From: an uncultured Dongia sp.
Lineage (GTDB): Bacteria > Pseudomonadota > Alphaproteobacteria > Dongiales > Dongiaceae
DNA: 64,000 nt
Assembly: GCF_936916975.1 (NCBI RefSeq)
Contig: NZ_CAKZGO010000020.1
Location: 62,001 to 126,000 of the forward strand
Direction of reading: 5' to 3'
Under the pieces are notes generated by a model. That model was not told the origin of the DNA, did no database searches, and was given only the letters and a program-made list of their open reading frames with translations. Each line of letters opens with the position of its first letter. The stretch's first letter is position 1. A program made the translations under genes and the position numbers. Positions 40,025 to 45,037 of the stretch are shown here, piece by piece.

Positions 40025-40993
40025 ATGACCCAGGAAATTCATACCAAGGCCCTCATCATCGGTTCCGGCCCGGCCGGCTATACCGCCGCGATCTATACCG
40101 CGCGCGCCAATCTGAAGCCGATCCTGGTCCAGGGCATCCAGCCGGGCGGACAGATGACCATCACCACCGATGTCGAAAATTATCCGGGCTTCGCCGACGT
40201 CATCCAGGGCCCGTGGCTGATGGAGCAGATGCAGAAACAGGCCGAGCATGTCGGCACGCGCACCATTTTCGACACGATCCTTGAGATCGATTTCAGCCGT
40301 CGGCCATTCCGGTGCACCGGTGATTCCGGCGATGTCTATGTGGCGGAGACCCTGATCATCGCGACCGGCGCCCAGGCGCGCTGGCTGGGGCTCGAGTCCG
40401 AGAAGAAATTCCAGGGCTTCGGCGTCTCTGCCTGCGCCACCTGCGACGGCTTCTTCTTCCGCGAAAAGGAAGTGGTGATCGTCGGCGGCGGCAATACCGC
40501 GGTCGAGGAAGCGATCTATCTCACCAACCATGCCACCAAGGTGACAATGGTCCATCGCCGCGATCATTTCCGCGCCGAGAAGATCATGCAGGACCGCCTG
40601 TTCCGCAATCCGAAGATTAACGTCGTGTGGAACAGCGTGGTCGAGGAAGTGCTGGGTGACACCGACCCCTTGGGCGTCACGGGCGTCAAGGTGAAGAACG
40701 TCCAGACCGGCGAGGTCACCACCATCCCCGCCGACGGCTTCTTCGTGGCCATCGGCCACAGCCCGGCGACCTCGCTCTTCAAGGGCAAGCTGGAGCTTGA
40801 TGCGGAAGGCTATCTCATCACCAAGCCGGACAGCACCGCCACCAACATTCCCGGCGTGTTTGCCGCCGGCGATGTGAAGGACAAGGTATTCCGCCAAGCC
40901 GTGACCGCCGCCGGCATGGGCTGCATGGCAGCGCTCGAAGCCGAGCGTTTCATCGCCGCCCATGAACACGATACCGCCCAGGCGGCCGAATAG
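40025..40993 (+). CDS. trxB: Thioredoxin reductase
   Basis: 322 residues. FAD/NADPH enzyme that reduces thioredoxin. FAD-binding LIIGSGPAGYTAAIY at the N terminus, the redox pair in SACATCDGFFFR (Cys137 and Cys140), the NADPH site IVGGGNTAVEEAIYL, and the C-terminal GVFAAGDVKDKVFRQAVTAA motif. All are in their usual spacing, and the length is typical. A LysR regulator gene follows in the same direction 85 bases on, a pairing common in alphaproteobacteria. Confidence 0.97.
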   Translation: MTQEIHTKALIIGSGPAGYTAAIYTARANLKPILVQGIQPGGQMTITTDVENYPGFADVIQGPWLMEQMQKQAEHVGTRTIFDTILEIDFSRRPFRCTGDSGDVYVAETLIIATGAQARWLGLESEKKFQGFGVSACATCDGFFFREKEVVIVGGGNTAVEEAIYLTNHATKVTMVHRRDHFRAEKIMQDRLFRNPKINVVWNSVVEEVLGDTDPLGVTGVKVKNVQTGEVTTIPADGFFVAIGHSPATSLFKGKLELDAEGYLITKPDSTATNIPGVFAAGDVKDKVFRQAVTAAGMGCMAALEAERFIAAHEHDTAQAAE

Positions 40994-41078: not shown

Positions 41079-41981
41079 ATGGCGATGGATTGGGACAAGC
41101 TCAGAATCTTCCACGCGGTGGCCGAAGCCGGCTCCTTCACCCATGCCGGTGAGGTGCTGAACCTCAGCCAGTCGGCAGTCTCGCGCCAGATCTCCTCACT
41201 GGAAGAAAGCCTCAACGTCGCCCTCTTTCACCGCCATGCCCGCGGCCTCATTCTGACCGAACAGGGCGAGCTGCTCTATCGCACCGCCCATGAGGTGTTC
41301 TCGAAGCTTGCCATGGCGGAAGCGCAGCTGGCGGAATCGAAGGACAGGCCGAAAGGCCAGCTGAAGGTGACAGCGACCCAGGCGTTCGGCTCGTCCTGGC
41401 TGACGCCGTGCCTCATCGAGTTCATCGACCTCTATCCCGATGTCGATGTCGATCTGGTGCTGGAGGACCGCGAGCTCGATCTCTCCATGCGTGAGGCCGA
41501 TGTCGCCATCCGCATGGCGCCACCGCGCCAGCCGGAACTGATCCAGCGCCATCTGATGACCGTGCATCTCAATATCTATGCAGCACCCAGCTATCTGAAG
41601 CGCCATGGCATTCCCAAGGTGCCGGAGGATATCGACCAGCACCGGGTCATCGTCTATGGCAACGACATGCGCCCGCCGGTCGAGGATATCGACTGGCTGT
41701 TGCGTGCCGGCACCAAGAAGGACAAGCCGCGCCGGCCGATCCTGCGCGTCAATTCCGTCTACGCCATCCAGCGCGCCGTGCAGAGCGGGCTGGGCCTCGC
41801 CAGCCTGCCGGAATTCATGGTGACGGAAGGCGCAAGCCTGGTGCGCGTCCTTCCTGAATTGCAGGGGCCGCGTATCGACGCCTATTTCGTCTATCCGGAA
41901 GAACTCCGGAATTCGAAACGCATCCAGGTGTTCCGCGACTTCCTGCTGCGCAAGGTCGCCGAAGGCAAGCTGCAGTCCTGA
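41079..41981 (+). CDS. LysR-family regulator next to trxB
   Basis: 300 residues. LysR winged-helix at 1-60 (LRIFHAVAEAGSFTHAGEVL, then NLSQSAVSRQISSLEE), followed by a two-lobed substrate-binding domain (TATQAFGSSWLTPCLIEFID). The effector is unknown. Its position directly after trxB suggests co-transcription or a link to redox control, but the sequence does not show which. A 9-bp-stem hairpin follows the stop. Confidence 0.93.
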   Translation: MAMDWDKLRIFHAVAEAGSFTHAGEVLNLSQSAVSRQISSLEESLNVALFHRHARGLILTEQGELLYRTAHEVFSKLAMAEAQLAESKDRPKGQLKVTATQAFGSSWLTPCLIEFIDLYPDVDVDLVLEDRELDLSMREADVAIRMAPPRQPELIQRHLMTVHLNIYAAPSYLKRHGIPKVPEDIDQHRVIVYGNDMRPPVEDIDWLLRAGTKKDKPRRPILRVNSVYAIQRAVQSGLGLASLPEFMVTEGASLVRVLPELQGPRIDAYFVYPEELRNSKRIQVFRDFLLRKVAEGKLQS

Positions 41982-42030: not shown

Positions 42031-42282
42031 CTAGCGTGCCCGATCGGCGCCCGACGGGAGATTGGCGGTCCGGGCGCTCTTCTTGACATCGTTGATGACG
42101 AAGATGGCGTGGAGCGCTGCCACCAGCCACAGCACAAAGCCGGGCGAGCCGCCCAGGAATAGGCTGAAAACAAACACCACCCAGGCCAGCACATAGAGCA
42201 GCAGGTTGAAGATGGCCTGAAAGATCTTGCCATAAAGCAGCAGGGCCAGAGGCGGGAAGATCAGGGCAACGAGATAGATCAT
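42031..42282 (-). CDS. YqaE/Pmp3-like small membrane protein
   Basis: About 83 residues starting MIYLVALIFPPLALLLYGKI, with two transmembrane helices (about 3-25 and 27-48, the latter FNLLLYVLAWVVFVFSLFL), a hydrophobic region at 55-68 (FVLWLVAALHAIFVIND) and a basic tail. The arrangement is that of the Pmp3/YqaE (UPF0057) proteolipids, which affect membrane potential and salt stress in yeast and plants; the role in bacteria is unknown. The open frame extends upstream, but 42282 gives the family start. Confidence 0.75.
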   Translation of the reverse strand: MIYLVALIFPPLALLLYGKIFQAIFNLLLYVLAWVVFVFSLFLGGSPGFVLWLVAALHAIFVINDVKKSARTANLPSGADRAR

Positions 42283-42799
42283 GGCGGTGGAGAGCTCCCA
42301 AATGAGACTAGCCAATCTAAATAGGGCGGCGCCCGCGCCGTGCAACGGCTGACCTGCGGATTTGCGGAGGGCAGCTGCTGCCCATTTCAAAGGCGGTGCA
42401 GTGCAGCAAAATCAGGCATTTCTGCGCAGTCACGACATATGCGTCGCGAACCAAAAACCCTGCCGACTCGATAGAGAATTCATCCGTGCAACAGTGATCG
42501 CGCTGTCAGAGACCCGCGAAAGGTGCAATCGCAGGCCCTGCGACAGATTCGCACGATGCCGCCACAAGAGAGATGCTTGCAACTTAACCTACTGATATAT
42601 TTGCATTCTATCGGTATGCATATGATGCATGCCGCGTCTGTGAATTTGACTCTGGTGAGCCCCGGCAATTCCTCTATCCTCTGCCTGTGCCCAGCAGCCA
42701 CACTGTTGTAATTTAGCAACAGACGGAACGTTTCGGTTCTGGCGGGTTGTAATAGTCACGATGGCGCCATAATTGGCAGACAGAGTGATTTGGCAAACG
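42283..42799. other. Gene-poor intergenic stretch before the structured RNA
   Basis: About 500 bases with no convincing gene on either strand. It is more AT-rich than most of the window (42590-42650 especially, with ATGCATATGATGCAT at 42616-42630). An inverted repeat CTGTTG/CAACAG with loop TAATTTAG lies at 42703-42722. Promoters for the leftward YqaE-like gene and for the RNA below are expected here. Confidence 0.5.
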
Positions 42800-42926
42800 A
42801 GTTTCGAAGCGCAAGCTTCACACTGAATTCGGGCGCGACGCCCGGATGGGGTCTTCGGACCCTACGTCTCCCAGACGTAAAGCCTCCCTGTTTAACTTGC
42901 CGGGCCTTGTGCCCGGCAGTTTTTTT
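42800..42926 (+). ncRNA. Candidate structured small RNA with intrinsic terminator
   Basis: Four consecutive perfect hairpins precede a terminator. GAAGC-GCAA-GCTTC (806-819 of this kilobase, i.e. 42806-42819) has a GNRA loop. CGGGCG/CGCCCG is at 42830-42844 with a three-base loop. GGGTC-TTCG-GACCC (42849-42862) has a stable UUCG loop and extends by two pairs. ACGTCT-CCC-AGACGT (42864-42878) puts CCC in the loop. A 20-base linker with GCCTCCCTG follows, then GCCGGGC-CTTGT-GCCCGGC (42899-42917) and seven T (42920-42926). The C-rich CUCCC elements could pair with Shine-Dalgarno sequences. The 5' end is not determined. It could instead be a leader for the PAS gene at 43109. Confidence 0.65.
42899..42926 (+). 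terminator. Rho-independent terminator of the candidate RNA
   Basis: A perfect 7-bp stem (GCCGGGC, GCCCGGC) with a five-base loop, AG, then seven consecutive T at 42920-42926. No coding gene ends before it on the plus strand, so it must end a non-coding transcript or act as an attenuator for the gene at 43109. Confidence 0.85.
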
Positions 42927-43108
42927 ATGGGCCCCGACTCCTATCCCTCCATGGATCACGGTCGCGCCGAGGCGCTGGCCAGCGTGCCGCCCTTTCCCCC
43001 ATGTCGGTAATATATCCGTTGCTGGAGCGACCAATGCGGGCACAATTGCCCTGTCGGGTTGTTATGTTGGTATCGTGAGGCGCTGCGCGCGCGCAATAAG
43101 GCGTACCC

Positions 43109-45037
43109 ATGGCACAGCCATCAGATCAAACCTATTTCATTAATTTGCTGGGCGACGCCATAGCCCTGCGATCCACTGAGACCGTGATCATTACGGGGCC
43201 GGATATCGATGAAAAGATGGGTCCGACCATCCAGTTCGCGACCCAGGCGGTCGAGCGCACATCCGGTTACCCACCGCACGAACTCGTCGGCAAACGACTG
43301 GGCATGCTGTTCGCGCCTGAATTGTTTCCCCAAGTCATTGATACCCTGCGTACCGCGGCAGAATCCAAGGAACCGATTATCGTCGAGCAGGAGGCTCGCC
43401 ACCGCACCGGCCGGACTCAATGGTTGGAGTTGAGCACCTCGCCCATTTTTGACAAGAGCGGCGCGCTTGTTCATTTCGTTCGGATCGGCCGCGACATCAC
43501 TGCCCGCAAGTCGGCGGAGCAGAACCGCGAGACGACACAGCGCCTGCTGGCATCGGTATTCGGCGTGATCAATGAGCCGCTGGCCGTCGCGGACAATGCG
43601 GGCAAGGTCCTGATGGCGAACACCGCCGTCACGCGCAAACTGGGCTGGAGCATTTTCGACCTGATGGGCAAGCCGGTCCTGAATTGTATCGCCGACGACG
43701 ACCGGCCGCGCGTTTCCGAGATGATGACCGACGGTTCCGCGCTCGATCAGACCCGCCAGCTGAAATGCTTCCTGCTGGTCAAAGGCAAACCGCAGATCGC
43801 CGGCGAGGTCGAGTTGACCAGCCTGCGGCAGGGTGATGGCGAGACTTATCATGTGCTGACGTTGCGCATCAGCCTCGAGAAGGAAGCTGTCGAAAAGGAA
43901 TGGAGTTTTGAGCTGGCGGTACGCCAGGCGATGAAAGGTGACGCCAGCGACCCGGTCGTCGTCGCCGGCAAACTGCAGATGGTCGGCCTTGAGTCCGTCA
44001 AGGAGGCGTTAGGGGAAAAATGGCCCGCAGTTGCCGACCGCGCCCATGCCCTGGCGGAGCGAACCATCCAGCGCCATCTGCGCCCCGGCGATATCGTCCG
44101 GCGATCGTCGGATGATGGATACCTGGTTCTCTTCTCGCAGCTTTCGCCGACCGAGGCGCAATTCAAAGCCAACGCCATCGCCGACGAAATCAAGGAGAAG
44201 CTGACCGGCGAAGTTCCCGAACTTGCCGAAGCGCGCGTCGCCTCCTTTGCCAGCGCCGTTCCGGTCGATCAGGCGGCTGGCAAAAACGAAGAATCCATCG
44301 TCGAATCGATTGAACGCCGGCTGAAGGCGGAACGCAGCCGCGTCGAGAAGGAGGCCAAAGCGACCCTTTCAACCGGCCTCCGCTCATTGAAAGCCATCAA
44401 TAGCCCGGTGACGAATGCCGACGGCAAGGCGACGCCCATCACAGTCATCCGTCTACCTAAATCACTGCGTGAAGCCATGCAGTCGCTTCATTCCCTGGGC
44501 GAACTTGGCTTCGAACTGGAATCCGAGACGTTCCTGCTGGCCGGTGCTGCGGAACGGGTATTGGCAGGTATCAGCCATAGCACTGGCGAGATCGTCATCG
44601 CGCAGGTTCGCGTCAGAACCCTCACCAATGCGCGCGCGTCGGAAGCCTGGCTGCAGGTCGCCCGCACGCTGGGGGATGCTGCCAAGCGCCAGATCGTCAT
44701 CGAGCTGCGTGATATTCCGCCGGATGTCGCCGAAACGCGGTTGAGCGACCTGATGATGCGCCTTTCCTCGCTGTTCAAGTCAGTGGCCTTCGAACTGCCG
44801 TCGAGCGAGCCGGGCTTCCTCTCCAAGCTGCCGGCGTCGACCAAACTGACCACCATGTCCTTTGGGCGCATTCCCTGGACCAGTACCGGGGAACCGGCGC
44901 CCGCTTTCTGCAAGATGGTGAAAGCGCTCGAGGTGCGGCAAAGACGCCTCATCGTGCGCGATATGGGATCACCGACAAAGCGCATGGCGCTCGCAAAAGC
45001 CGGTGTTTCGCTCTTTGTGCCACCCCATGAAGGATAG
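43109..45037 (+). CDS. PAS-PAS protein with degenerate GGDEF-like domain
   Basis: 642 residues, cytoplasmic. PAS 1 at about 20-135 (QAVERTSGYPPHELVGKRL; ends VRIGRDITARKSAEQ) and PAS 2 at about 145-260 (VFGVINEPLAVADNAGKVLM). Residues 265-375 keep the outline of a GGDEF domain: the segment RTIQRHLRPGDIVRRSSDDGYLVLF lines up with the usual LRPGDxVxRxGGDEF, but the signature is SSDDG (333-337), so diguanylate cyclase activity is not expected. The last 210 residues may be a decayed EAL-like barrel (IVIELRDIP, then AKAGVSLFVPP), without catalytic residues that I can identify. A likely signal receptor or ligand-binding regulator. AAGG lies seven bases before the ATG. Confidence 0.7.
   Translation: MAQPSDQTYFINLLGDAIALRSTETVIITGPDIDEKMGPTIQFATQAVERTSGYPPHELVGKRLGMLFAPELFPQVIDTLRTAAESKEPIIVEQEARHRTGRTQWLELSTSPIFDKSGALVHFVRIGRDITARKSAEQNRETTQRLLASVFGVINEPLAVADNAGKVLMANTAVTRKLGWSIFDLMGKPVLNCIADDDRPRVSEMMTDGSALDQTRQLKCFLLVKGKPQIAGEVELTSLRQGDGETYHVLTLRISLEKEAVEKEWSFELAVRQAMKGDASDPVVVAGKLQMVGLESVKEALGEKWPAVADRAHALAERTIQRHLRPGDIVRRSSDDGYLVLFSQLSPTEAQFKANAIADEIKEKLTGEVPELAEARVASFASAVPVDQAAGKNEESIVESIERRLKAERSRVEKEAKATLSTGLRSLKAINSPVTNADGKATPITVIRLPKSLREAMQSLHSLGELGFELESETFLLAGAAERVLAGISHSTGEIVIAQVRVRTLTNARASEAWLQVARTLGDAAKRQIVIELRDIPPDVAETRLSDLMMRLSSLFKSVAFELPSSEPGFLSKLPASTKLTTMSFGRIPWTSTGEPAPAFCKMVKALEVRQRRLIVRDMGSPTKRMALAKAGVSLFVPPHEG

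Follow-up and report, generated by a model that had tools for sequence, protein, structure and literature searches.

A candidate AbcR1-like small RNA beside the gene of an LsrB/VtlR-type regulator in an uncultured Dongia species

The small RNA locus and its neighbouring genes

The analysed stretch of 64,000 nucleotides from an uncultured Dongia sp. (the window) very probably carries a small RNA gene at 42806-42926 on the plus strand, next to the gene of a LysR-type regulator. The features of the locus, including the predicted promoter and transcript, are as follows.

40025-40993, plus strand: trxB, thioredoxin reductase, first gene of the trxB-lysR-sRNA order (NCBIfam TIGR01292, 415.9 bits, cut-off 343.45)
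41079-41981, plus strand: LysR-type regulator, LsrB/VtlR orthologue (Pfam HTH_1 and LysR_substrate; identity to 9HH1)
42031-42390, minus strand: 119-aa ORF in the gap from lysR to the sRNA (no match in Pfam or NCBIfam)
42616-42630, plus strand: ATGC-N7-GCAT dyad (LysR box, T-N11-A), predicted LsrB site with its centre at about -64 (from the spacers of relatives)
42675-42680, plus strand: -10-like element TATCCT, at +52 counted from the centre of the dyad (TANNNT peak in relatives)
42687-42928, plus strand: predicted full sRNA transcript of ~240 nt (start placed from the -10 element, end from the terminator)
42703-42722, plus strand: 5' hairpin CUGUUG...CAACAG (from the sequence; mostly kept in same-genus loci)
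42806-42819, plus strand: hairpin 1, GAAGC-GCAA-GCUUC, GCAA loop (sequence and fold)
42827-42847, plus strand: hairpin 2, AUUCGGGCG-CGA-CGCCCGGAU, CGA loop (sequence and fold)
42849-42862, plus strand: hairpin 3, GGGUC-UUCG-GACCC, UUCG loop (sequence and fold)
42864-42878, plus strand: hairpin 4, ACGUCU-CCC-AGACGU, CCC loop (sequence and fold)
42868-42873, plus strand: M1 motif CUCCCA at the loop of hairpin 4 (sequence)
42879-42898, plus strand: unpaired linker AAAGCCUCCCUGUUUAACUU, predicted main seed at the M2 position (from its invariance and target pairing)
42899-42926, plus strand: intrinsic terminator, G+C-rich (stem 42899-42917, run of seven T at 42920-42926)

The sRNA occupies a 718-base gap between the minus-strand ORF and a PAS-domain gene (43109-45037). 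The ORF list and the Pfam analysis of the window give no likely coding gene through this stretch, and we know of no support for the ORFs listed across it, in agreement with the preliminary description of this DNA, which had seen no coding gene ending here on the sRNA strand. The four perfect hairpins, C-rich linker and textbook terminator reported there were confirmed by direct reading and by the fold: the region 42795-42930 folds with -56.3 kcal/mol, compared to -41.5 ± 3.7 kcal/mol for dinucleotide shuffles (z -4.04, none of 200 as stable), and the ensemble centroid includes all four hairpins, the linker and the terminator. A terminator scan of 42300-43200 returned one site, at 42899-42926. 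Since shuffles of this region average 0.8 sites, chance could account for the terminator taken by itself, but not for the conservation of the sRNA locus.

The LysR protein, probably the activator of the sRNA, is identical in 150 of 293 residues (51%) to PDB entry 9HH1, its best solved relative (341.5 bits, the next 135), which was deposited as A. tumefaciens LsrB (PMC11975290). Between lysR and the sRNA lie ~860 nt in the window, with the opposing ORF in between; within the genus this gap ranges from ~0.4 to 2.8 kb, and in most relatives it is short (126-320 nt). The published order in A. tumefaciens is trxB-vtlR-abcR1-abcR2 (PMC7486931). The genome also contains hfq (111 bits).

For LsrB, the redox cysteines C144, C236, C244 and C273 were described (PMC11975290). 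The window protein lacks all four; its single cysteine is at position 111. Among 106 distinct orthologues (at least 270 aa aligned and at least 45% identical to the window protein), none has a cysteine at the place of C273, 10 have one at that of C144, and in 79 the aligned part is free of cysteine. In the same paper LsrB was called unique to Rhizobiales on a few reference species (PMC11975290), with which the orthologues found here, as judged by sequence similarity, disagree.

Conservation, promoter and distribution

A DNA search with 42600-43110 gave matches in 31 of 61 genomes, the own genome included, which extended most broadly over hairpin 4, the linker and the terminator. The core was present in 30 of 30 BLAST loci, of which 29 entered alignment A1 (L018, missed by the pattern, was left out) and 25 entered alignment A2 (four near-duplicates were dropped, as was L017 with its odd terminator). 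Across the sequences of A2 the CCTCCCTGT columns are invariant, and GTCTCCCAGACGT is invariant or nearly so. Within the genus, identity across five loci is 1.00 over 42840-42899 and 0.92 over 42640-42659, with one locus (L006) ending short upstream and depressing the upstream values, and it falls to 0.46 or less in three 20-base blocks after 42940. The L006 locus (G005) carries extra copies of a GAAGC-GCAA-GCUUC-type hairpin in the variable 5' part upstream of its sRNA.

The preliminary description had asked for stems conserved with compensatory changes in relatives. Such changes are seen in hairpins 1 and 2 and in the terminator; there is hardly any variation in hairpins 3 and 4. In a family alignment (A3), whose structure was taken from the window's own fold, three of the four outer pairs of hairpin 1 and four of the nine pairs of hairpin 2 have changed on both sides; four of the five pairs of hairpin 3 are constant and all six of hairpin 4 invariant in 14 family loci. 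Four measures on A3 beat all 500 shuffles, and a fifth, 'further pair types', did not (375 of 500 shuffles reached it). For the terminator, six of seven stem pairs covary in 66 sequences, in an alignment that was fitted to the model and leans towards it; its 65 sources were hand-picked, many of them via the exact core pattern, and it is no test of hairpin 4. RNAalifold on A2 recovered hairpin 4 only, with almost no covariation term, because this hairpin scarcely varies and the terminators are misaligned by MAFFT.

The conserved unit begins upstream of 42800 as read from the sequence, with the dyad at 42616-42630 and the extra hairpin at 42703-42722. To characterize the promoter, 115 lysR-sRNA spacers (less than 600 nt from the end of the LysR match to the core) were reduced to 101 distinct ones, which include close relatives and are not independent; the window's longer spacer is not among them. 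The dyad occurs exactly in 81 of these 101 spacers, where Markov resamples led to an expectation of 0.47, and with up to one mismatch in 97 (11.4 expected from Markov resamples). In the 97 relatives a TANNNT hexamer is most frequent 52 nt (22 cases) and 53 nt (16 cases) past the dyad centre, with all other offsets at 7 or fewer, and a hairpin comparable to 42703-42722 under a loose pattern is found in 58, at a median of +72 from the dyad. ATGC-N7-GCAT is not rare across the genome (three in the window, six in 400 kb sampled outside it), so that a single copy is no proof by itself, whereas the constant position of the dyad is.

With TATCCT at exactly +52 from the window's dyad, transcription probably starts near 42687, which places the dyad at about -64, and the transcript would then probably be ~240 nt long and take in the 5' hairpin. 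The start at 42800 given in the preliminary description is therefore replaced by one predicted ~110 nt earlier from the dyad and the -10 element. A site at about -64 is the usual position for a LysR activator. No good -35 element was found for TATCCT, and a plain sigma-70 scan gave no site on the sRNA strand. The S. meliloti promoter PabcR1 is reported to contain T-N11-A motifs and an LsrB box, GCAT-N3-TG-N3-T, at -61 to -49, whose removal cut reporter activity more than 22-fold (PMC8844928). The right half-site of the window's dyad lies at about -60. The full published box is not present in the dyad region of the window; it occurs in 19 of the 101 spacers compared to 2.7 expected from base shuffles, a modest excess, and the dyad explains far more.

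Across the class, a covariance model that we built from 25 sequences (R1) matched 143 of 289 genomes, the own genome included, and 162 of the 289 have a LysR orthologue by protein search (E up to 1e-75). The linkage was counted among the matches listed, which cover 119 of the 143 genomes with the RNA and 150 of the 162 with LysR, with 107 in both lists. In 93 of these 107 genomes the RNA lies downstream of LysR, on the same strand and no more than 8 kb away, at a median distance of 204 nt, and the closest LysR-RNA pair is never on opposite strands among the matches listed. The linkage is absent in the other 14, with the two on separate contigs in 13 and ~3 Mb apart in one. Among the matches listed, 43 of the 150 LysR genomes have no R1 match. 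The stretch downstream of LysR in 39 of these 43 contains weaker R1 relatives (E < 1e-3) in five cases and the exact dyad in 12; some of these stretches have CUCCC hairpins and many have nothing.

The exact core pattern occurs at no fewer than 119 loci; among 119 of them a LysR gene lies upstream on the same strand in 90 and is missing in 29, some of these for want of sequence. Records with pattern loci (at least 119 in all) are named Azospirillum, Kiloniella, Nisaea, Pelagibius, Reyranella, Skermanella and Thalassobaculum, among others. Of the 63 loci that allowed a test, 46 have trxB no more than 1 kb upstream of LysR and 17 lack it. As the AbcR1 region has already been described as syntenic across alphaproteobacteria (PMC8844928), the linkage of LysR and RNA is not new; new here are its extent and the divergent RNA. 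Among the matches listed, a literature search found no description of the RNA in Rhodospirillales, and in the available text of an Azospirillum brasilense sRNA survey AbcR1 appears in the reference list only (PMC7685610).

Family placement and predicted targets

The preliminary description had left the RNA without a known family. At gathering scores this holds, since Rfam then gave no match anywhere in the window; a permissive search, in contrast, returned SorX below its cut-off as the best model (43.8 bits, cut-off 46.6, E 2.6e-9) at 42858-42924, including CUCCCUGUU, followed by SorY with 24.6 and suhB/mmgR with 22.7 bits (suhB cut-off 41). Membership of SorX or of alpha-r8 was rejected by these families' own cut-offs. 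With the sub-cut-off SorX match on one side and synteny and promoter, which tie the RNA to AbcR1, on the other, we no longer regard it as unassignable. The SorX model matches 91 of the 289 class genomes at E up to 0.001 and exceeds its cut-off in four. In one genome, G038, SorX copies above the cut-off occur elsewhere, and a further, sub-cut-off copy follows the LysR gene at a distance of 120 nt. This points to a possible common superfamily with SorX and the AbcR-like RNAs as its branches.

The AbcR1 family model, ar15 (RF02345, cut-off 40), is not listed for the window at E up to 10, although the clan rule might hide a score below the 22.7 bits of suhB, itself far under 40. This model matched 0 of the 289 genomes and likewise none of the controls, and is thus uninformative on absence. 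The ar35 model (RF02346) matched 14 of the 289 genomes, none over the cut-off, and is irrelevant to the RNA; one such match, at G000:C4:624984-625128 (L063), reaches 37.5 bits compared to a cut-off of 45.

From its sequence features the RNA most likely corresponds to AbcR1 of rhizobia, an sRNA that depends on Hfq (alpha-r15; Agrobacterium, Sinorhizobium, Brucella). It shares with AbcR1 the gene order trxB-lsrB/vtlR-sRNA, as in A. tumefaciens, a LysR box (T-N11-A, with a GCAT half-site near -61 in AbcR1) at about the same promoter distance, CUCCCA (M1) in a hairpin with a second C-rich unpaired motif before the terminator, and ABC-transporter mRNAs as predicted targets. For Brucella AbcR, the regulation of target mRNAs is reported to need M1, which lies in the first hairpin, and M2 (GUUCCC), which lies between hairpins (PMC5461406). 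In the RNA described here, the M1 hairpin is instead the fourth or fifth, and the M2 position is taken by CCUCCCUGUU. Further differences are the predicted length of ~240 nt compared to 114-121 nt in S. meliloti, a single copy beside lysR in place of the abcR1-abcR2 tandem, and a LysR protein without the redox cysteines. The RNA would function like AbcR1 and lies where AbcR1 lies, yet it is not filed in the ar15 family, because GUUCCC is absent and ar15 unmatched.

Other known RNAs resemble it in part. The SmelC671 model has a conserved single-stranded CUCCCUGU between variable hairpins and the terminator, Rhizobiales-wide (PMC3927594), and may belong with the RNA in one superfamily, as compared by description only. 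The analogy drawn previously with CUCCUCCC-loop RNAs turned out to be the poorer one, as a CUCCC-type loop is confined to hairpin 4 and the other CUCCC is part of the linker. Small RNAs of the SmelA075/A099 type, with several CCUCCUCCC-loop hairpins, were rejected as a match, the loops here being GCAA, CGA, UUCG and CCC.

Pairing of the RNA with translation starts was evaluated on 23 binding-protein genes of the window's own genome (13 SBP_bac_5 and 10 Peripla_BP_6) in comparison with 365 control genes called in 20 stretches and the window. The comparison covers one genome and uses simple start-codon rules, which are not the same for both sets of genes; a few starts among the 23 seem to be incorrect. 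With these limits, the linker forms duplexes with the binding-protein start regions at a median of -14.7 kcal/mol, compared to -10.5 for all controls (p 3.6e-6), -11.0 for the 172 controls with a Shine-Dalgarno score of at least 4 (p 2.9e-5) and -12.5 for the 54 controls with a score of at least 5 (p 0.007). The strongest duplexes, -23.3 (L204) and -22.5 kcal/mol (L202), lie over the Shine-Dalgarno region. When the flanks were shuffled around an unchanged CCUCCC core, none of 100 such seeds matched the result of the linker; their median p of ~0.02 shows that part of the signal is plain Shine-Dalgarno pairing. On a subset of 13 of the 23 genes, p was 1.1e-4 for the linker; of 40 fully shuffled linkers, the best three reached 0.0008, 0.0014 and 0.0047. 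The M1 loop alone was weaker (p 0.002 for all controls, 0.017 and 0.35 for scores of at least 4 and 5). The unpaired linker is hence predicted to pair unusually well with start sites of ABC-transporter binding proteins. An independent, terminator-ended RNA with exposed CUCCC segments, as first proposed, is supported by these data, and its predicted action in trans at ribosome-binding sites is probably right as well.

Proposed function and alternative explanations

Taken together, we consider it quite likely that the locus encodes an AbcR1-type, Hfq-dependent, trans-acting sRNA that is activated by the LysR protein and blocks the mRNAs of ABC-transporter binding proteins. The LsrB/VtlR-type regulator would bind the ATGC-N7-GCAT dyad ~64 nt upstream of the start and activate the promoter with the -10 element at 42675, from which an RNA of ~240 nt ending at 42926 would be made. 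Its linker, perhaps aided by the CUCCCA loop of hairpin 4, would pair over the Shine-Dalgarno region of mRNAs for substrate-binding proteins of ABC transporters, which would remain untranslated and be degraded. Gene order, promoter anatomy, the conserved seed, structure, terminator, hfq and the excess complementarity to transporter starts are read from the sequence; transcription, control by LsrB, binding of Hfq and repression we infer from them.

A different origin of the mature RNA is conceivable. In a stress sRNA of the SorX/SorY type, the functional form would be the 3' part, ~42858-42926, cut out by RNase E and directed at a polyamine transporter or another single transporter under oxidative stress. 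The best-scoring Rfam model covers this part, with its CUCCCUGUU linker and terminator as in SorX (RF02784) of Rhodobacter sphaeroides, hairpins 1 and 2 vary and hairpins 3 and 4 and the linker are fixed, and SorX itself is reported as a 116-nt precursor that RNase E processes to 75 nt (PMC9438474). The score, however, does not reach the gathering threshold, SorX belongs to the 3' UTR of an OmpR-type gene (PMC9438474), whereas the RNA follows lysR with its own conserved predicted promoter and has trxB, lysR, the minus-strand ORF and the PAS gene as neighbours, and in G038 SorX and the LysR-linked RNA seem to coexist. We therefore regard this reading as improbable. Still less probable is an alpha-r8 sRNA (MmgR, SisA-D; suhB, RF00519) governing carbon storage. 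Both RNAs have a CCUCCCU seed between a hairpin and the terminator (PMC12559287), and the suhB/mmgR model does give the RNA its 22.7 bits, but this falls far short of 41; the alpha-r8 10-mer UUUCCUCCCU is absent, the RNA having AAGCCUCCCU, and the linked alpha-r8 copy is described as adjoining a formylglutamate amidohydrolase gene, not lysR (PMC12559287).

The hairpins and terminator could also be just the 3' end and 3' UTR of a longer upstream transcript, without activity in trans, for which the short gaps between lysR and the sRNA in most relatives would permit read-through. In the window, however, the nearest upstream ORF is on the opposite strand, the seed and the promoter dyad are conserved class-wide while the hairpins between them vary, and the seed is complementary to binding-protein start sites, which makes this explanation very unlikely.

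LsrB and its sRNA could form an ancient alphaproteobacterial module that predates the thiol switch of rhizobial LsrB. In such a module, an LsrB lacking the redox cysteines would, throughout the class, drive an AbcR-like RNA with a different seed from one promoter layout and thereby the whole ABC-uptake programme, and LsrB would first have sensed something other than peroxide, perhaps a metabolite; we hold the arguments for and against this proposal to be evenly balanced. AbcR RNAs and LsrB/VtlR have so far been studied in rhizobia, Agrobacterium and Brucella. In Rhodospirillales and further alphaproteobacteria, the data place an AbcR-like RNA together with trxB and an LsrB orthologue, and the promoters share one layout. 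This raises the question of what LsrB senses where the redox cysteines are absent, and it offers a simple, testable unit of one regulator, one box, one sRNA and one target class, for example in Azospirillum, which is harmless and can be grown in the laboratory. It also points to a widespread alphaproteobacterial sRNA that the Rfam cut-offs missed in the window.

The genome contains a second, weaker R1 match of 33 bits (L067, G000:C22:159773-159864, minus strand). It has a UCUCC loop and a CCUCCCUGUCUAACUU linker, and the exact ATGC-N7-GCAT dyad is absent from the 400 bases upstream; it is a probable sibling sRNA under other control. Four other genomes (G249, G259, G224 and G182) have four to six R1 matches each, some of them close together.
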